Part shown: in pieces, positions 38,144-47,598 of the stretch
Layout of the letters: each line of letters begins with the position of its first letter
Position numbering within the stretch: the first letter of the stretch is position 1
Assembly (NCBI GenBank): GCA_025928185.1
Contig: JAICKA010000014.1
Location: 1 to 50,781, forward strand
Length of the DNA: 50,781 nucleotides
Origin: Gemmatimonadaceae bacterium
Lineage (GTDB): Bacteria; Gemmatimonadota; Gemmatimonadetes; Gemmatimonadales; Gemmatimonadaceae
Direction: 5' to 3'
Program-made: the position numbers and the translations under genes
Notes under the pieces: model-generated
The model's input: the letters and a program-made list of their open reading frames with translations, nothing else
Told to the model about the DNA's origin: nothing
Databases searched by the model: none

Positions 38144-38187
38144 TCCGCGGACTGGCGATCGGAGCGGCTAGTGGCCGCTTCGATCGC
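38133..38187. terminator. two adjacent hairpins between convergent helicase and CBM48 genes
   Basis: CCGCGGA (38133-38139) pairs with TCCGCGG (38144-38150), with the helicase stop in the loop. Next, a 14-base-pair stem (38155-38168 with 38174-38187) including one G-T pair holds the stop codon of the opposite gene. No T-tracts. Confidence 0.6.
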
Positions 38188-39376
38188 TGATCACGAGCAG
38201 CCCGACGTCGCCGCCGTAGCTGTCGTGCATGGTTGGCATTCCGGGCGGCGCCATCCACGCGCCGCCGTCGGTGCGCACCGTGATCTGGTGCATGCCCGGC
38301 GAGAGCGGCATCGAAAGCTCCCACAGATCGCGTCCGCGGCGCACGAGCGTGAGCGGGCTCCAATCGCTGAAGTCGCCCATCACGTCCACGGTCTCAACGC
38401 CGCCGACGTGGATGACGATCTTCTGCATGCCCTGTGGCGCCGGGTGAACTTCGAAGCTCTTCACGAGCACCGTGCGCGGGAACGACACCGGCACGGTCGA
38501 GCGTGACGACGGCCAGTAGGACAGCTCGAGACCGGCCATTCCGTACGAGCGAGCCGGCAGGCCGCGAAGGGGCAGAGCCGGCTGCCGGCCGCCACCGCCG
38601 ATCACCGCAATCCGATCGTTGAGCCAAATCGTGGCGGTCGCCGAGCTCCAGCGGCGCGAGTCCGGCGTGACGTCGTACCCGTTGCCAAACCGATAGCCGG
38701 TCTGTGCTTCGAGCTCGAGCGGCCCGCCTTCCCAGTGCAGCACGCCTTCCAGATCGCCGAATCGCGATTGCCGTTCGCAGGTGCCGTCGGTCGCCGCCGC
38801 GCACGTGAGCGAGGCAACCGCCGTGTCCGACGCCGACGCGATCTTGGTGAATGAGAAATTCGTGAATGTCGCGGTGAGCGTGGCACCACCGAGCTTGCCC
38901 CAGATGCCCGCGTCGGCGATGTCGGCCGACGACACGACCGCTACGCGCCAGGGCCGCGCGACACCGCCGCCGAACCACATGCCGCCGCGCTGATGGAACA
39001 GCACGTGAATCCGCGTTTGCACGTCCACCTGATCGGTGCCGAGCGATCGATCGTCGACGGCGCGACTGGCGTTGCCGATCATCTCCGCGCGGACGCCGTA
39101 CACCGTGGGAGACGTGAACGTCCCGGACACGATCCCGTCCGCCACCTGGAGCTGCTGCTCGGACACGTACGCCGAGCCGTGGGCGGTGATCCGTGCGTGC
39201 GGCAGGTCGATGCGGAAGTCGGGCGCCAGGCGCAGCATGCTCACGGGCAGCGCGCCGTCGGAGACCGTGTACGAGCCTGCCTCCAGCTTGGAGACAACTT
39301 GCGCTGCAAGCTCCCGCGGCGCGGGAACCAGCAGCGCAGTACCAATGGCCAGGATCGCGACCTTCCGCTCGTGCAT
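38168..39376 (-). CDS. exported protein with C-terminal AMPK-type glycogen-binding domain (CBM48)
   Basis: This 402-residue protein begins with a signal peptide (MHERKVAILAIGTALLVPAPRELAAQ in pieces). Residues 30-300 are rich in alternating beta strands (GMWFGGGVARPWRVAVVSS, LELEAQTGYRFGNGYDV, SYGMAGLELSYWP) and could form an outer-membrane barrel. The last 90 residues form an AMPK1/CBM48 domain: KIVIHVGGVETVDVMGDFSDWSPLTL in pieces, then LWELSMPLSPGMHQITVRTDGG. This module binds alpha-glucans or acts as an accessory fold. It is the last gene of the ECF operon, 1 base after the previous stop, and shares its module with the second gene. Confidence 0.75.
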   Translation of the reverse strand: MHERKVAILAIGTALLVPAPRELAAQVVSKLEAGSYTVSDGALPVSMLRLAPDFRIDLPHARITAHGSAYVSEQQLQVADGIVSGTFTSPTVYGVRAEMIGNASRAVDDRSLGTDQVDVQTRIHVLFHQRGGMWFGGGVARPWRVAVVSSADIADAGIWGKLGGATLTATFTNFSFTKIASASDTAVASLTCAAATDGTCERQSRFGDLEGVLHWEGGPLELEAQTGYRFGNGYDVTPDSRRWSSATATIWLNDRIAVIGGGGRQPALPLRGLPARSYGMAGLELSYWPSSRSTVPVSFPRTVLVKSFEVHPAPQGMQKIVIHVGGVETVDVMGDFSDWSPLTLVRRGRDLWELSMPLSPGMHQITVRTDGGAWMAPPGMPTMHDSYGGDVGLLVISDRSGH

Positions 39377-39377
39377 G

Positions 39378-40040
39378 TTATCTCGAGCTTTGGTTCTCCT
39401 GCTGCCCCTCGGGCGGCTTCACCTTGCGTGGAGTCGGGCCGCCCGGCGTCTCGCGAACCCGGTTCTGCAGCGCCGTACCCGGATTCAACCCTTGGAGTAT
39501 GTCGGATTGGACGCTCTTCCACAAGTTGTGAAAGGTTGCGTCGTCGGCGCCGTCCTGCCAGAGCTTGGTGATGGCCGAGGAGGCGTCGTCCCGCGGAACG
39601 CCGCGGGTGAGAAGGTCGGCCCAATCGGTGAACGCCTCGAGATCGCTGCGTCCGCGCTGGCGCACGCGGAACGTCGCGAGCTCTGACGGCTTCGCGCCCG
39701 CCTCGAGCACTGCGGCGGCGGCGGCGAGCTCCTCGTCGCTCACGCCGCCCAATGTGGCACGGGCAGTCTTCAGGTAGCCGAAATCAGTGCGGACCACCGC
39801 GACGATGCGGCGGCCATCCGCCTTGCGGCTGATTCCCTCGAGCACTTTCGACATCAGCGGCCGGGTCGGGAGTCCCGCCGTCGACGCGGAATCCATGATG
39901 AGCTCGATGGCGAACCGGCTGTTCGGGTCGAGGCGGCCGAGCGGATCCGGATCCTGGCCGCGCGCCGTAGCCGCGCAGAGGAAGGCCAGTCCGCTCGCAC
40001 TCGCCACCGTGGCGGCGCGCCGCCAGAGTGCGCGTCTCAT
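39378..40040 (-). CDS. secreted protein of unknown function in the ECF/CBM48 operon
   Basis: This 220-residue protein has a signal peptide (ATVASASGLAFLCAATARGQ). The mature part is helical and charged (MSKVLEGISRKADGRRIVAVVRTDFGYLKTARATLGGVSDEELAAAAAVLEAG in pieces), with no motif I recognise. The C-terminal 30 residues are proline- and glutamine-rich and disordered. Its ATG overlaps the preceding stop (ATGA), so it is translationally coupled. The conserved place between two glycogen-binding-domain genes suggests an envelope role with them. Confidence 0.7.
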   Translation of the reverse strand: MRRALWRRAATVASASGLAFLCAATARGQDPDPLGRLDPNSRFAIELIMDSASTAGLPTRPLMSKVLEGISRKADGRRIVAVVRTDFGYLKTARATLGGVSDEELAAAAAVLEAGAKPSELATFRVRQRGRSDLEAFTDWADLLTRGVPRDDASSAITKLWQDGADDATFHNLWKSVQSDILQGLNPGTALQNRVRETPGGPTPRKVKPPEGQQENQSSR

Positions 40041-40627
40041 GAGCGGGACCCGCCGACGATCTTCACAGAATTCGCATGGCCGAAGCCGCCGTCGGGCGCG
40101 AGCGGCGCGCGCGGATCGGGAATCCACGATCCATCGACGACGAACGCGTACAGGTGGCGGCCGGCGCTGAGCGGCAGCGTGACCGTCCAGACGCCGACGT
40201 TTCCGTCGTACGTCAGCGGCGTTCGGTTCGTGTCCCAGTCGTTGAAGTCGCCGACGAGCGAGACGCTCGTGGTGCGCGGCGCCGTGAACACGAATTGAAC
40301 GACGGTATCTGAAACCGGGAGCTGCGGAGTCACAGCGACAGTCGTGGACCGCCCGTCCGCCGCACGGACGTCCCGGTTGTGTACGAAGCGGCCGGCAATC
40401 ACGCCGATGCCGACGAGACCGGCCGCGAGAAGAGCACCACCGACGGGGGAGAGTACGAGCGTGCGCGGCGCCAGCAGTCCGGCCCACCGTGCCCGCCGCA
40501 CCGCACGCGGCGGCTCGGCGCGAATGGCCGCCATGAGGCGCGCGCGGGCCGCCGGGTCCGTGAGGACCGGACGCCGCGCTTCGCGGGCGATCCACTCGAC
40601 GTAGGGATGCTCTTCCGAGTCAATCAT
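40037..40627 (-). CDS. membrane protein with anti-sigma-like N-terminus and periplasmic CBM48 domain
   Basis: This 196-residue protein starts at ATG 40627, overlapping the sigma factor stop by 8 bases. The short cytoplasmic part (about 1-55, HPYVEWIAREARRPVLTDPAARARLMAAIRAEPPR in pieces) lacks a zinc motif (HxxxCxxC). One membrane helix follows (about 57-79). An AMPK1/CBM48 domain (about 108-192) has VQFVFTAPRTTSVSLVGDFNDW and GRHLYAFVVDGSWIPDP. Position and topology fit an anti-sigma factor whose outside part carries a carbohydrate-binding module. That role is inferred from gene order; no known anti-sigma domain is recognised. Confidence 0.75.
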   Translation of the reverse strand: MIDSEEHPYVEWIAREARRPVLTDPAARARLMAAIRAEPPRAVRRARWAGLLAPRTLVLSPVGGALLAAGLVGIGVIAGRFVHNRDVRAADGRSTTVAVTPQLPVSDTVVQFVFTAPRTTSVSLVGDFNDWDTNRTPLTYDGNVGVWTVTLPLSAGRHLYAFVVDGSWIPDPRAPLAPDGGFGHANSVKIVGGSRS

Positions 40628-41159
40628 CCTTGATTCGCTCCCAGCGGTCCCGCAATCGATCACAGGCGCGCTTCACGCGCATCTTCAGGGCAGATACGCC
40701 GACGCCGGTCAGCGCCGACATTTCCTCGTAGCTCATCTCTTCGATGTATTTCAGCAGAAAGGCTTCCCGCAACAACGGGTCCAGTTCGGCCAGAACTCGC
40801 TGTACGATTTCCTCGTCTTCACCAGCCCAACTCGTCGCGCGCGCCGGCGCATTCAGCAGCACCGCCTCTTCCCGCACGAACACGCGTTCGCGGTGCGAGC
40901 GGCGCGCGGCGATGCTCCTGCATTGGTTCACCAGGATCCGGTAGAGCCAGGCGCTGAATCGATCGCGCTCCTGATAGCGATGCAATGCCCGATACGCCCG
41001 CAAGAACGTGGCTTGCAGCGCGTCTTCCGCGTCGTCGCGGTCGCCCAACATGCGAATGGCGAATCGTGCACAACGGTCATAGTACCGATCCACCAAGGCG
41101 GCGTACGCCTCGACGTCACCTGCCAGCACGCGTTGCACGTCGGCGGCATCGTCGCTCAT
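40620..41159 (-). CDS. ECF-type RNA polymerase sigma factor (first gene of CBM48 operon)
   Basis: This 179-residue sigma factor starts at ATG 41159 (MSDDAADVQRVLAGD) with AAAGGA just upstream. Region 2 shows YYDRCARFAIRMLGDRDDAEDALQATFLRAYRAL in pieces and FSAWLYRILVNQCRS; region 4 shows LLREAFLLKYIEEMSYEEMSALTGV and ALKMRVKRACDRLRDRW. This is the ordinary RpoE/SigW-like ECF layout without extra domains. A TTATAG element about 20 bases upstream could be its -10. Coupling to the next gene by overlap suggests sigma and regulator are made in step. Extra target genes cannot be seen. Confidence 0.9.
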   Translation of the reverse strand: MSDDAADVQRVLAGDVEAYAALVDRYYDRCARFAIRMLGDRDDAEDALQATFLRAYRALHRYQERDRFSAWLYRILVNQCRSIAARRSHRERVFVREEAVLLNAPARATSWAGEDEEIVQRVLAELDPLLREAFLLKYIEEMSYEEMSALTGVGVSALKMRVKRACDRLRDRWERIKDD

Positions 41160-41285
41160 GTCCTTTGCTATAACCCACCCCCCTGTCGCGCGGGTCACAT
41201 GTCGCTCTGTGACGAACCTCACGAACGTCTGCACGGAAGCTGTCCGCGTGCGCGCGCGGAGGCCAGAGGACGATGGTTGCTGCGT

Positions 41286-41790: not shown

Positions 41791-42051
41791 ATGCCGCTCC
41801 GCCCCATCACCCGCTGCTGCTCGATCGTCGTGCTCTCCGGTGCCGCCGCCCTGGCGGCGGGGTGCGCCAATCCGCGTGCCGAAGCCAACACGGCCCAGGC
41901 ACTCAATGACGCCGCCAACGAGATCAGCGGGTTGCGGAGCGACGTCGCGGACCTGCAAACGCGGCTGGATTCGTTGCGCGAAGTCGTGGCACACCAGGAC
42001 ACGACGATCCGCCGGATCGCGGCCGTCTATAATGTTCCGATATCGCAGTGA
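41791..42051 (+). CDS. small coiled-coil lipoprotein
   Basis: This 86-residue protein has a lipoprotein signal (SIVVLSGAAALAAGC). The lipobox is LAAGC, followed by ANPRAEAN. The mature 60 residues form one long helix with heptad pattern (NEISGLRSDVADLQTRLDSLREVVAHQD in pieces), like an Lpp or OmpH-type spacer. It probably sits in the periplasm attached to a membrane. No catalytic residues. It ends 147 bases before the selenoprotein start, separated by a hairpin. Confidence 0.72.
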   Translation: MPLRPITRCCSIVVLSGAAALAAGCANPRAEANTAQALNDAANEISGLRSDVADLQTRLDSLREVVAHQDTTIRRIAAVYNVPISQ

Positions 42052-42052
42052 C

Positions 42053-42096
42053 GTGCCGGGAGGGTGCAAGGCGGGCGGCTTTCCCGCCTGCGGCAC
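42053..42096 (+). terminator. nested hairpin after the coiled-coil lipoprotein gene
   Basis: GTGCCG (42053-42058) pairs with CGGCAC (42091-42096), enclosing AGGCGGG (42069-42075) paired with CCCGCCT (42083-42089). No T-tract follows. Confidence 0.55.
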
Positions 42097-42198
42097 AGTG
42101 GCGGGGTTCGGCATCATCTTCGCGGAGAAGGTGACCAGCTACCCGAAGCCAGCGCCCCACCACCGTCCCGCATCCAGCATCGAGTCGCCAGCACTCAC

Positions 42199-42435
42199 AT
42201 GACCATCACGATCGAATATTGCACGATGTGAAGCTACGAGCCCCGGGCCGTCAGGTTGGCGGCCGAGATTCGTGAGCGGTTTCCGGAGGCGAAGGTCGAG
42301 TTGATCCAGTCGCGAGGCGGTCGGTTCGAGGTCGTCGCCGACGGCGAACCGGTATTTGAAAAGTCTAAACTCGACCGGCACGCTCGGCCGGGCGAGGTGC
42401 TCGGCCTGCTCGAGCAGCGGTATCCGGCCGGCTGA
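42199..42435 (+). CDS. Rdx-family (SelW/SelT/SelH-like) selenoprotein with in-frame TGA read as selenocysteine
   Basis: This 78-residue thioredoxin-like selenoprotein starts at ATG 42199. Codon 11 is TGA (42229-42231), and the frame then stays open to TGA 42433-42435. The N-terminus reads MTITIEYCTM-U-SYEPRAVRLAAEI, so the TGA sits at the second redox position of CxxC (here CxxU) after strand 1. The rest matches the Rdx fold: FPEAKVELIQSRGGRFEVV, DGEPVFEKSKL and PGEVLGLLEQRY. Each conserved element (Y after the motif, GG.FEV, DG..VF.K) is present only if TGA is read through. A SECIS-like hairpin begins 14 bases after it. Such proteins are redox enzymes of unknown substrate. pfkA starts 37 bases downstream. 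No strong ribosome site is visible. Confidence 0.88.
42237..42272 (+). promoter_or_regulatory. bacterial SECIS-like hairpin for selenocysteine insertion
   Basis: A 7-base-pair apical stem (42246-42252 with 42258-42264, one T-G pair) closes loop AGGTT. It begins 14 bases after the TGA, and the loop G residues lie about 23 bases after it. E. coli fdhF has an AGGUCU loop at a similar distance, recognised by SelB. A short outer helix, CGA (42237-42239) with TCG (42270-42272), may extend it. Confidence 0.7.
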
Positions 42436-42472
42436 CCGGCCGGGCATTTCACGTTCTTCTGCTCTCGTCCGC

Positions 42473-43552
42473 ATGCGTCTAGCCATATCCACCGGGGGCG
42501 GTGACGCACCCGGCCTCAACGCCGTCATTCGCGCCGCCGTGTTGTCGGCGATCAACCGCGGCTGGGACGTGTGCGGCATCAAGCGCGGCTTCGCCGGCCT
42601 CCTCGGCGAGGACGAAGTGGTTCCGCTCACCCGCGAGTCGGTGCGCGGCATCGCCCATCTAGGCGGCACCATTCTGCGCACGACGAACCGCGGCAATCCA
42701 TTCCACTATCCGCGCGTGCAATCGGACGGGTCGATCATCGAGGAGGACCGGTCCGACGAGCTGATCGACAACGCGCGCCGACTCGGCATCGATGCGGTGA
42801 TCTCGATCGGCGGCGACGGCTCGCTGACGATCGCCAAGCTGCTTTGCGACCGCGGGATGAAGGTCGTCGGTGTGCCGAAGACGATCGACAACGACGTGAG
42901 CGGCACGATCACGACGTTCGGATTCGACACGGCGGTGAACACGGCCCTCGACGCGATCGACAAGCTGCATACCACGGCCGAAAGCCACGACCGCGTGATC
43001 GTGCTCGAGGTGATGGGACGCGACGCGGGATTCATCGCGCTGCATTCCGGGCTCGCGGGCACGGCGGACGTCATCCTCATTCCCGAGATTCCATACGACA
43101 TCTCGAAAGTGTGCGAGAAGATCCAGGCGCGCGACCGCGCCGGCCGCCACTTCTCGATCGTCGTCGTGGCCGAGGGCGCGTTTCCGCGGGGCGGCACGGT
43201 ATCGCTGATCGGCGAATCGCTGCCCGGTGAGTCGCGGCGGCTCGGCGGATTGTGCGAACCGATCGCGCGGGAGATTCAGCAGCGCACCGGCAAGGAGACA
43301 CGCTCGCTGGTGCTCGGACACCTGCAGCGCGGCGGCATGCCGACGGGGTACGACCGGCTGCTCGCGACGCGGTTCGGGGGCGCGGCGGTGCGCGCCGTAG
43401 CCGACGGCAAGTGGGGCCACATGGTCGCGCTCCAGTCGCCGCATATCGTGACGATCCCGATCGAAGACGCGCTGCGCGAGCCAAAGCGCGTGGATCCAAG
43501 GCACGACGTGGTGCTGACGGCGAGAGCGACGGGGATCAGCTTCGGGGATTGA
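42473..43552 (+). CDS. pfkA: 6-phosphofructokinase
   Basis: This 359-residue glycolytic enzyme phosphorylates fructose 6-phosphate. It starts MRLAISTGGGDAPGLNAVIR at ATG 42473. Motifs: ISIGGDGSL (GGDGS 113-117), PKTIDNDVSGT (135 onward, with the catalytic Asp in TIDND), MGRDAGFIALHSGL, and LGHLQRGGMPTGYDR. At the two phosphoryl-donor positions it has Gly116, as in ATP enzymes, and Lys136 where E. coli ATP-PFK has Gly and PPi-dependent enzymes have Lys. Donor choice (ATP or pyrophosphate) is therefore unresolved. It follows the selenoprotein closely and may share its transcript. Confidence 0.93.
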   Translation: MRLAISTGGGDAPGLNAVIRAAVLSAINRGWDVCGIKRGFAGLLGEDEVVPLTRESVRGIAHLGGTILRTTNRGNPFHYPRVQSDGSIIEEDRSDELIDNARRLGIDAVISIGGDGSLTIAKLLCDRGMKVVGVPKTIDNDVSGTITTFGFDTAVNTALDAIDKLHTTAESHDRVIVLEVMGRDAGFIALHSGLAGTADVILIPEIPYDISKVCEKIQARDRAGRHFSIVVVAEGAFPRGGTVSLIGESLPGESRRLGGLCEPIAREIQQRTGKETRSLVLGHLQRGGMPTGYDRLLATRFGGAAVRAVADGKWGHMVALQSPHIVTIPIEDALREPKRVDPRHDVVLTARATGISFGD

Positions 43553-43615
43553 CGGGGGCGGGGTCCGTGGTCCGTCGTCCGTAGTCGTCGCGGGGGTGAG
43601 TGTCGCGCGCCTCGC

Positions 43616-43675
43616 CACTCCGCCCACTCCGCCCACTCCGCCCACTCCGCCCACTCTGCCCACTCCGCAAACTCC
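43616..43675. repeat. 9-base tandem repeat, about six copies
   Basis: CACTCCGCC is repeated from 43616 in phase, with copy five changed to CACTCTGCC, copy six to CACTCCGCA and a last partial AACTCC. On the minus strand it would code a Glu-Trp-Ala repeat, but there is no other sign of a gene. Confidence 0.85.
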
Positions 43676-43764: not shown

Positions 43765-43980
43765 TGCGGAGAACTGCGGAGCACCGCGGACAGGCGCGGA
43801 GAGGCGTTGGCGGGGTGTTGATGAATGATGAACAGCTGCACTGCACGTCGCCCCCGTGATTCTGGGCGCGTTCTCGGACGGTGCAATTCCTTGTCGACGA
43901 GAGCTTCGTCAACCCCTCACAAATTGAAGCCCTCTTCGTCGTTCTCCGCAGTTCTCCGCAGTTCTCCGCAGTTCTCCGTA
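43765..43980. repeat. inverted pair of 10-base tandem arrays
   Basis: Four in-phase copies of GTTCTCCGCA occupy 43941-43980 (the last ends GTA). The reverse complement, TGCGGAGAAC and three decaying versions, occupies 43765-43804. Between them a second inverted match, GGGG-T-GTTGATGAA (43813-43826) with TTCGTCAACCCC (43907-43918), extends the symmetry. The whole could fold as a long hairpin with a spacer of about 80 bases. Confidence 0.7.
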
Positions 43981-44886: not shown

Positions 44887-47598
44887 GTGACCCGAAACGT
44901 CCGCGATCCGTACCTTCCCGATCACGAATCGTTCGTTCAGGCCGAGCCGTCATCAGGCCGGGTGATCGTCATCGCGCCGACGCGCGCAGCCTGCGAGACG
45001 ATCGAGCTCGCGGTCCAGCTGAAGATCGAGACGTATCTCGAGCAGCATCACGGCGTGCGCGTGCGCGAGATGGCGCGCTCCGGCAAAGGTTTCGGCATCG
45101 TTGCGGGCACGGGCACGGGCAAGACGCTCGCGATCCGACCGATCGCTGAAGAGATCCTCGGCACGACGGAGCTCAAGGTTGGCGTCGTCAACCGCGAGCG
45201 TGAAGCGACGCCGGAGACCCCGACGTGGAACGTGATCGTCGTGACGACTGGCATCGCGCGCCGCTGGTTCGAGGAGGGCGACATTCTCCCGACCGACACG
45301 ATCGTCGTGGACGAGATTCATCAGACCTCCGCCGAACTGGAGCTCTGTCTGGCGCTCGGCAAGCGTACGCGGTGCCGTTTCGTCTGGCTCTCGGCGACGG
45401 TCAATCCCGAGTTCTACGCCAGGTATCTCGATTCGGCGACTGTGCTCGAAGTGTACGACTTCGATCCGTCCAAGGCCGCGCAGGTGCGGGTCGTGCGCAA
45501 GCAGCCGCCGCAATTTCTCGACGAGGGCTTCTTGCGGCAGCTCGTGAAGCAGAAGCGCGGCGTGGCGCTGTTCGTTCCGACGCGCCGCGGCGTCGAAGAG
45601 GCGGCCGAGCACGTGCGGCGCATGGCGCCGCGCGTGAACACCGCGTTCTATCACGGCGGAGAACCGATCCGGATTCTGCGTCCGTTCCTCGAGGGCGGCG
45701 AGCAGAAGCCGTACTTCCTCGCCATGACCGCCGCCGGCCAGAGCGCACTGAACGTGCGCGGGCTCGACACGGTGATCATCGACGACAAGAAGTTCTTCAA
45801 CGCCATCGATCGCGGCCGCAACGTGCTCACGCAGGAGCACCTCGGCGCGAACGAGATTCTCCAGATGGCGGGACGCGTGCACGGGCGCGTGCAGGGCGGA
45901 CGCGTGTTCATTCTGTCCGATCGCGACATCGAATTCGAGCAGCTCCAGCCGACCGAGCCGGAATTCCAGCTCGCCGGCGATTCCGAGCGGGTCGCGATCA
46001 CCTGCGCGGCGCTCGGCGTCCGTGCCGACGAGCTGGACCTGCCGGTTCCGCTCGATCGCGTGGCGTATCGCCAGGCGCTGGCGCTGCTGGAGGAGCGCGG
46101 CATCGTCGAGCGCGGCCGGCTCACGCGCTACGGCCGCGACGTCGAAGCGATGCCCGTCGAGCGGGCGTGGGCCGAGCTGTTAGTGAATGCTGATGACGCC
46201 CTGCTGCCGTATCTGGCGGTGATGAGCTCCGTCGAGTCGCTGCACCGCATGACGCGCGAGGAGCGCGATCTCGACGGATTGATCGTGCCGGGCAGCGACC
46301 ACCTCACGGCGTACAATCTGTACGCCGAAGCGTACGCCTCGGCGGGACGAATGGGAGCGGTCTACGGACTGCCGCGGCATCTGTTCGACGAGGAACGCAT
46401 CGAGCGGTGGGCCGAGCGGCGCGGTGCGCTGGTGAAGGCGATCGAGGATGCCGCGCTCGGTATGGCGAGCATCTACCGCGCGGTTGGCCTGGCGCTGCCG
46501 TCGCGCATGCCGAATGCCGGCGAGGAAACGCTCGCCGCCTTCCAGCAACTGCTCGCGCAATACATGCCCTTCACTCTCGTGATCGACGAACAGACTGCGT
46601 CCGGCGACAATGCGCGCGTGTCGAAGACGAGCGTGTGCGGAAGCTGGGGACCGATCGCCGGCGAGCTGCGGTATTTCGCGGACAAGTTCGGAAATCCGCG
46701 CGCATCGATTGAAGGCACGCAGGTCCCGTACGAACGCCTTCGGCCGTTCGCCACGGTCACCGAGGGCGAGCTGCTGTACAATCCGGAAAGCAAGCGCTCG
46801 CCGCTCGTGCTGCGACGACGGGTCGAGTATCACGGTTTCGAGCTCGAGCGCGAGATCGACCCGATCAACGAGTTTCCGCCGGAATTGGCGGACCGTGCGC
46901 GCCACGCGCTGGCCGAGGCGCTCGCGCGCGGCGAAGCGCGGCATCCGGGCACGCGACGGAACCAGGACGCGATCGATGCGGTTCGCGAAACGTATCGGCG
47001 CTCGGGCGGCGTGACGCCGCGACTCAGCTTCGCGGACCTCACGGCGATGTACGAGCGCCAGCTCGCCGGTGTCGACTCGATCGATCAGTTCCGTCACACC
47101 GCGTTGCACATCAATGCCGACGAGATCGTTCCCGCGGAAGTTCGCGCGCGCTACGCTGAGCTTCCGTCGACGGTGTCGGTGCGCGGCCGCGACATCGAGG
47201 TGCATTACGACGTGGAGGAATCCGCAACGGGAACGTACGGCGTGGCACGCCTGCGCCTGCCCGAGAAGCTTGCGCGTACGTTGGCGAGCGAGGAGTTGCC
47301 CGCGCTCGATCGGCCGCTGCGGTTCATCGTCACGCGCGGCGCGCGCGGCGCCGCGCGCGCGAGCACGCTCGACGCGCTGCAGGAGGAGCTCGATCGCCCG
47401 TTCAGCGCGAAGGAGCTGGAGGACATCGACCGCGCGCACAACGATCGCGAGCGTGAGCGACACGAGCGAAAGCGTCAGCGGCGCACGCGAGACACGGGCG
47501 AGGCGCTCAAGGAGCATCGCAAGCTGGCGTCGAACGAGCGCGATGGGCGTCGTGGGCCGCCACGTGGGCGCGGCGGACGTCGACGACGACGCAGCTGA
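44887..47598 (+). CDS. DEAH-like superfamily 2 helicase (HrpA/HrpB-related)
   Basis: This protein of about 903 residues starts at GTG 44887. The helicase core has IVAGTGTGKT (Walker A, 74-80), VVDEIHQTSAELEL (DEIH, a variant of DEAH), WLSATVNPEF (motif III), FVPTRRGVEEAAEHV (motif IV), MTAAGQSALNVRGLDTVI and motif VI QMAGRVHGRVQGG. DEAH helicases normally read QRxGRxGR, so one extra residue sits in motif VI. A winged-helix-like segment (VAYRQALALLEERGIVERG) follows. The long C-terminal half is unlike HrpA or HrpB, and the tail is RGPPRGRGGRRRRRS, likely RNA-binding. An odd N-terminal string VIVIAPTRAACETIE resembles motif Ia. Role: probably RNA remodelling. Confidence 0.82.
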   Translation: MTRNVRDPYLPDHESFVQAEPSSGRVIVIAPTRAACETIELAVQLKIETYLEQHHGVRVREMARSGKGFGIVAGTGTGKTLAIRPIAEEILGTTELKVGVVNREREATPETPTWNVIVVTTGIARRWFEEGDILPTDTIVVDEIHQTSAELELCLALGKRTRCRFVWLSATVNPEFYARYLDSATVLEVYDFDPSKAAQVRVVRKQPPQFLDEGFLRQLVKQKRGVALFVPTRRGVEEAAEHVRRMAPRVNTAFYHGGEPIRILRPFLEGGEQKPYFLAMTAAGQSALNVRGLDTVIIDDKKFFNAIDRGRNVLTQEHLGANEILQMAGRVHGRVQGGRVFILSDRDIEFEQLQPTEPEFQLAGDSERVAITCAALGVRADELDLPVPLDRVAYRQALALLEERGIVERGRLTRYGRDVEAMPVERAWAELLVNADDALLPYLAVMSSVESLHRMTREERDLDGLIVPGSDHLTAYNLYAEAYASAGRMGAVYGLPRHLFDEERIERWAERRGALVKAIEDAALGMASIYRAVGLALPSRMPNAGEETLAAFQQLLAQYMPFTLVIDEQTASGDNARVSKTSVCGSWGPIAGELRYFADKFGNPRASIEGTQVPYERLRPFATVTEGELLYNPESKRSPLVLRRRVEYHGFELEREIDPINEFPPELADRARHALAEALARGEARHPGTRRNQDAIDAVRETYRRSGGVTPRLSFADLTAMYERQLAGVDSIDQFRHTALHINADEIVPAEVRARYAELPSTVSVRGRDIEVHYDVEESATGTYGVARLRLPEKLARTLASEELPALDRPLRFIVTRGARGAARASTLDALQEELDRPFSAKELEDIDRAHNDRERERHERKRQRRTRDTGEALKEHRKLASNERDGRRGPPRGRGGRRRRRS

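Follow-up and report, generated by a model that had tools for sequence, protein, structure and literature searches.

A SelW-like selenoprotein gene, inferred from sequence, next to pfkA in a Gemmatimonadota bacterium

Main finding

Positions 42199-42435 on the plus strand of the window (the whole 50,781-nucleotide stretch that was analysed) are interpreted as a functional SelW-like selenoprotein gene of the Rdx family in a Gemmatimonadota bacterium, a reading to which we give a probability of about 0.97. Sequence comparisons show the gene, its family, the selenocysteine (Sec) machinery, the conserved TGA, covariation in a SECIS-type stem and linkage to pfkA, and from them we infer Sec insertion at the UGA and a redox activity of the product. 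The features concerned are the following:

42199..42435, plus strand: selW-like selenoprotein gene, 78 aa by TGA read-through translation, CTMU at residues 8-11 (PF10262, NF041051, TIGR02174)
42229..42231, plus strand: in-frame TGA, putative Sec codon for residue 11 (TGA in 139 and Cys in 1 of 140 phylum genomes read)
42246..42264, plus strand: candidate bSECIS-type stem-loop, 8-bp stem, apical loop GGU at 42254-42256, UGA-loop spacing 22 nt (fold, covariation, bSECIS model)
42473..43552, plus strand: pfkA, 6-phosphofructokinase, starting 37 nt 3' of the selW stop (Pfam PFK, E 2.3e-103; adjacency at 89 of 111 loci)
44887..47598, plus strand: downstream helicase-type gene (Pfam DEAD, 1.2e-7)

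The read-through frame and its product

The frame comprises ten codons, the TGA at 42229-42231 as codon 11, 67 further codons and a terminal TGA at 42433-42435, and its read-through translation runs MTITIEYCTM-TGA-SYEPRA...YPAG-TGA. The sequence-only reading had warned that standard ORF calling would lose such a gene, and the table 11 listing indeed holds no plus-strand ORF of at least 60 aa in the selW frame. Two of the ORFs overlapping selW, 42139-42696 and 42234-42509, are on the minus strand; the others, 41840-42202 and a pfkA version extended to a TTG at 42356, occupy a different plus frame. A scan of 41900-42600 for promoter and terminator patterns found none.

The profile search of the 78-residue protein that had been proposed as a check returned Pfam Rdx (PF10262) over residues 2-71, spanning the TGA (E 7.3e-19; 68.2 bits against a cut-off of 22.6), NF041051 as the best NCBIfam match (92.3 bits, cut-off 88) and TIGR02174 (57.6 bits, cut-off 34.2). 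The earlier description of an Rdx-family protein split by an in-frame TGA was thus correct as to family, Sec position and gene bounds. The CxxU motif consists of C8, T, M and the TGA at 11, the Sec codon taking the second of the two redox positions. Both redox positions are invariant in 37 aligned sequences, in which U was written as C at the Sec site; a true Cys occupies that site in two of the 37 rows (L028 and L141).

In the AlphaFold model obtained with the 37 aligned sequences (pLDDT 93.6, pTM 0.83, order E-H-E-E-E-H-H), the product has a thioredoxin-like Rdx fold, and the CxxU pair is placed between strand 1 and helix 1. A Foldseek search with this predicted model gave 23 PDB chains at E <= 0.001, from eight entries that all recur in the sequence search (2fa8, 2obk, 2oka, 3dex, 2ojl, 2p0g, 2ljk and 2npb) and that we take to be Rdx proteins. 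SelW-related proteins rank on top (2fa8, TM 0.83-0.85), followed by mouse SelW (0.69) and then thioredoxins; by sequence, the nearest solved chains are 2fa8 (6.1e-7), 2ljk and 2obk. The product is most likely a small CxxU thiol/selenol oxidoreductase. Passages of PMC1088965 likewise infer a redox role for SelW-like proteins and call their function unclear.

Judged by substitution ratios, the segment 3' of the TGA is under purifying selection, with dN/dS of 0.12-0.24 against the same-genus loci L031, L032, L042, L055 and L064. The ratio is less striking in a wider set (median pN/pS 0.54, maximum 1.12, for 2899 pairs with pS 0.1-0.6).

Linkage to pfkA

At 89 of 111 loci, including the window's own (L030), selW is followed by pfkA on its own strand at a distance of no more than 600 nt. 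The other 22 gave no match in the available flanks, some of them short; they include L120-L123, which belong to different families within the class, and L036, with just 336 nt of downstream sequence available. At the 89 loci the gap between the selW stop and the pfkA start has a median of 12 nt, quartiles of -4 and 37 and a range of -10 to 161, and it is at most 60 nt in 76. The overlapping ends implied by a first quartile of -4 nt suggest translational coupling, and the two genes are probably carried on one transcript. A helicase-type match follows downstream on the same strand at 59 of 111 loci, many flanks being short. Among the 14 named loci, the 12 not titled Gemmatimonadetes or Gemmatimonadaceae gave no pfkA match at 1e-8.

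The same-strand adjacency and the short or overlapping gaps could mean that the selenoprotein acts on or with PfkA, in a redox tuning of phosphofructokinase that would add to Sec insertion rather than compete with it. This is unlikely, however, as operon mates need not interact, and both the 22 loci without adjacency and the 12 differently titled loci without a pfkA match weigh against it. Nor does any PfkA cysteine prove both common to most SelW-linked genomes and specific to them: Cys214 occurs in 79 of 86 linked genomes and in 17 of 18 SelW-less ones, and the minority cysteines 125, 133 and 276 (22, 21 and 28 of the 86; Cys133 in 1 and Cys276 in 3 of the 18 SelW-less genomes) are weak evidence either way. 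Since no majority cysteine tracks with SelW, pairing PfkA with SelW in a redox couple is guesswork. Also unlikely is a role in which the gene pair lets selenium supply, through UGA decoding, and the thiol redox state influence glycolytic flux, whether by SelW acting on PfkA or by Sec read-through setting the coupled translation of pfkA.

Among SelW-less relatives, 19 of the 20 genomes searched have pfkA matches, at 22 loci, and no Rdx remnant was detected near these at E <= 1; the positive control matched at 16 of 16 loci, but all of these came from the profile's own building set.

Other elements of the window were observed on either side. Six copies of the 9-mer CCACTCCGC lie at 43615-43675, immediately 3' of pfkA, and there is a 10-mer array at 43941-43978. 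On the minus strand, 38168-41234 contains two AMPK1_CBM/CBM48-like glycogen-binding-domain proteins near a sigma-70-type factor (regions 2 and 4).

Sec machinery in the genome and across the phylum

The sequence-only reading was to be abandoned if the genome had no selA, selB, selC or selD. The assembly to which the window belongs (3.71 Mb in 288 contigs, with 90.1% completeness and 5.3% contamination) has each of the four, scoring above the curated cut-offs. The genes are selA at C278:3499 (542.7 bits, cut-off 267.9), selB at C78:94555 (356.7 bits, cut-off 242.25), selD at C53:33815 (369.9 bits, cut-off 125) and, beside selD, a tRNA-Sec at C53:34833 with anticodon tca (74.2 bits, cut-off 47). 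The selA, selB and selD-selC loci are all on contigs other than that of selW; their assignment to the same genome is made partly because five same-genus genomes have SelW and selA too. The selD gene (G000:C53:33815-34738; L013:1453-2511) has an in-frame TGA of its own at residue 27 (RCAGUAAK), which, with selW, brings the apparent selenoprotein genes of this genome to at least two. Folding of the sequence 3' of the selD TGA, started one base late, gave an uninformative z of -0.12. The tRNA-Sec (L013:2519-2616, ARAGORN) starts after a gap of 7 nt from the selD stop.

SECIS- and SelB-directed insertion of Sec at UGA is an established mechanism in bacteria. In the present case, SelA would make Sec-tRNA using selenophosphate from SelD, and the GGU-loop stem-loop 22 nt after UGA codon 11 would recruit SelB-GTP with the Sec-tRNA (anticodon UCA), so that Sec is inserted in place of termination. 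A C8-U11 selenenylsulfide could then form in the product and exchange with a partner.

An even draw from a larger group supplied the 395 phylum genomes that were surveyed. The label Gemmatimonadota for these genomes rests on the closest named relative, L016 (a Gemmatimonadaceae MAG, 77% identity), whose protein agrees letter for letter with L032 from the same-genus genome G177. A SelW-like protein was matched in 188 genomes (E <= 1e-6) and selA in 290 (E <= 0.001; 280 above the family cut-off and 10 under it). At these limits, 179 genomes have both, 9 have SelW only, 111 have selA only and 96 have neither, an association with a Fisher p of 8e-23, uncorrected for relatedness. In the 111 selA-only genomes, Sec may serve in proteins other than SelW. 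Among the 179 genomes with both, the search for tRNA-Sec and selB covered the window's own genome only. Assembly gaps may explain most of the nine selA-less genomes, given that tRNA-Sec is above cut-off in eight of them and selB in six. The sole one of the nine that also lacks an above-cut-off tRNA-Sec is G129, a single contig scored 100% complete, with neither a selA match nor selB above cut-off and with Cys at the Sec site (L141). A Cys form without Sec machinery is what Sec decoding predicts, here in one genome, and it offers a ready natural comparison. A frame starting like PfkA (MRIAISTGGGDAPGLNAVIRA) directly follows this Cys-form selW.

Conservation of the TGA codon

Each of 150 listed genomes (a number obtained by subtraction) has a TGA inside the SelW match, and the other 38 were searched again. 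The codon itself was read in 140 of the 188 genomes, the remaining 48 being known as stop counts only. Loci L030-L139 have TGA in 110 of 110 cases, or 111 of 111 with the named locus L018, and L140-L169 have it in 29 of 30, the exception being the Cys of L141 (G129); the TGA in the G129 search row fits that gene's terminal stop. As to frameshifts or second stops in relatives, which would have told against the gene, the printed sequences have no second stop before the C-terminal end, but L163 (G025) keeps the TGA, diverges from the family beyond about residue 51 and looks frameshifted.

The 14 named loci have TGA at the site in 12 cases and Cys in two (L028, Nitrospiraceae, and L029, Dehalococcoidia). 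By title, L016 and L018 among the 12 are Gemmatimonadota, and the rest are Calditrichota, Actinomycetota, Planctomycetota-type and one unassigned bacterium. The SelW-like proteins of L017 (a MAG titled Calditrichota) and L019 (titled Actinomycetota) show hardly any differences along most of the sequence. This points to one of the two MAGs being mis-binned or mislabelled, or to gene transfer.

Reading of the UGA as another amino acid, by near-cognate read-through with Trp or Cys or under a reassigned code, is possible in principle but very improbable. The selW gene itself ends in TGA, which argues against general reassignment; the genome has a tRNA-Sec (tca) along with the sel genes; and the non-TGA sites read are Cys (L028, L029 and G129).

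The putative SECIS element

Numbered from the U of the UGA, the stem pairs 18-25 with 29-36 around an apical loop at 26-28, which is GGU in the window and GUC or GUU in most sequences. The bSECIS model has four constraints (PMC13188914, section 5), and the window agrees with all four as given there, applied by hand rather than by bSECISearch. Folding energy alone is a weak signal: the 50-nt stretch folds at -22 kcal/mol, with z of -2.28 against dinucleotide shuffles and -1.32 against synonymous shuffles, and the mean z over 111 loci is -0.78, with -0.28 for a control stretch. An Rfam scan of 41900-42700 gave four matches, all far below gathering scores and none of a SECIS family.

With folding z-scores this modest, the case for a SECIS element rests on covariation, analysed in 109 distinct sequences over 136 third-codon-position pairs with 2000 shuffles. 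The two pairs with the highest mutual information, 18-36 and 21-33, both belong to the stem and join positions that are silent or almost so. Pair 18-36 (0.75 bit; G-C 60, A-U 24, C-G 8) is paired in 95 of 109 sequences against 64.5 on shuffling, and pair 21-33 (0.319 bit) in 108 of 109 against 96.8. Together with 22-32 (91 paired, 86.3 on shuffling), these are the three of eight stem pairs that exceed all 2000 shuffles. Pair 23-31 is marginal (48 of 2000 shuffles), and 19-35, 20-34, 24-30 and 25-29 are uninformative, a column being constant or nearly so. Relatedness contributes to the mutual information, since pair 42-45, outside the stem, ranks third (0.302).

The Rdx match that spans the TGA, the purifying selection beyond it and the retention of TGA in 139 of 140 genomes place the selW frame beyond chance. 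That the TGA is a true stop, as table 11 would have it, and that what follows is a degenerate pseudogene or a frame open by chance, as the frameshifted look of L163 might hint, is most improbable in view of that selection, of the TGA at one same site and of the silent-site covariation in the stem.

Comparison with known systems

SelW-like selenoproteins have long been known in bacteria, according to passages of PMC1088965, PMC1794560 and PMC2398784, and entries with PF10262 and CxxU are tabulated in parts of PMC9312934 and PMC13188914. The family is therefore not new, and its Gemmatimonadota member is ordinary in kind and not surprising. The suggestion that SelW in this lineage and beside pfkA may be undescribed stands within the literature searched. 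The string "Gemmatimon" is absent from the main text of PMC13188914, PMC5029168, PMC12013277, PMC9312934, PMC5330540 and PMC4561486, and no description of a selenoprotein, selenocysteine or selenophosphate in Gemmatimonadota was found in the portions of the literature covered (including PMC3281104); these exclude supplements, where a prior listing is possible. A Gemmatimonadetes MAG is reported in PMC8318568, whose Sec passages concern a deltaproteobacterium, and PMC8938466 gives selA, selB and selD for 47-50% of the MAGs from the Challenger Deep, in passages without a tie to Gemmatimonadota. Judged from the search listing, nothing apparently relevant links a selenoprotein to a phosphofructokinase operon.

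The analysis recovers a gene lost to ordinary ORF calling, as were epsilonproteobacterial SelW genes missed by annotation, according to passages of PMC4607533. Beyond the sequence-only reading, it contributes the SECIS element, the Cys-bearing relative that lacks Sec machinery, and the extent of the pfkA linkage. Most worth keeping are the wide distribution in the phylum, in which many genomes have the Sec trait and a SelW selenoprotein although no such description was found in print, the Cys form without Sec machinery, and the linkage of selW to pfkA as a gene-context lead to a possible role of bacterial SelW.

The Gemmatimonadota gene shares with other bacterial SelW-like selenoproteins the Rdx domain, a CxxU motif with Sec in second place, a SECIS element after the UGA and a small single-domain product, and differs in its host, which is not named in the passages of those papers. 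The best NCBIfam match above its curated cut-off, NF041051 (SelTWH_Campy, SelT/SelW/SelH family (seleno)protein), is named for Campylobacter-type proteins. Gene-context leads for SelW already exist, as passages of PMC13188914 mention metagenomic operons that combine Prx with SELENOW-like genes; those operons have Prx genes, whereas the Gemmatimonadota selW adjoins pfkA. The fold of the predicted model is that of mouse SelW (2npb; TM by query length 0.69) and of the bacterial structures 2fa8, 2obk, 2oka and 3dex (0.81-0.87), but all five are 21-35% identical to the Gemmatimonadota protein. The redox motif of 2fa8 is CTQC, the Cys form, where the Gemmatimonadota protein would have CTMU.
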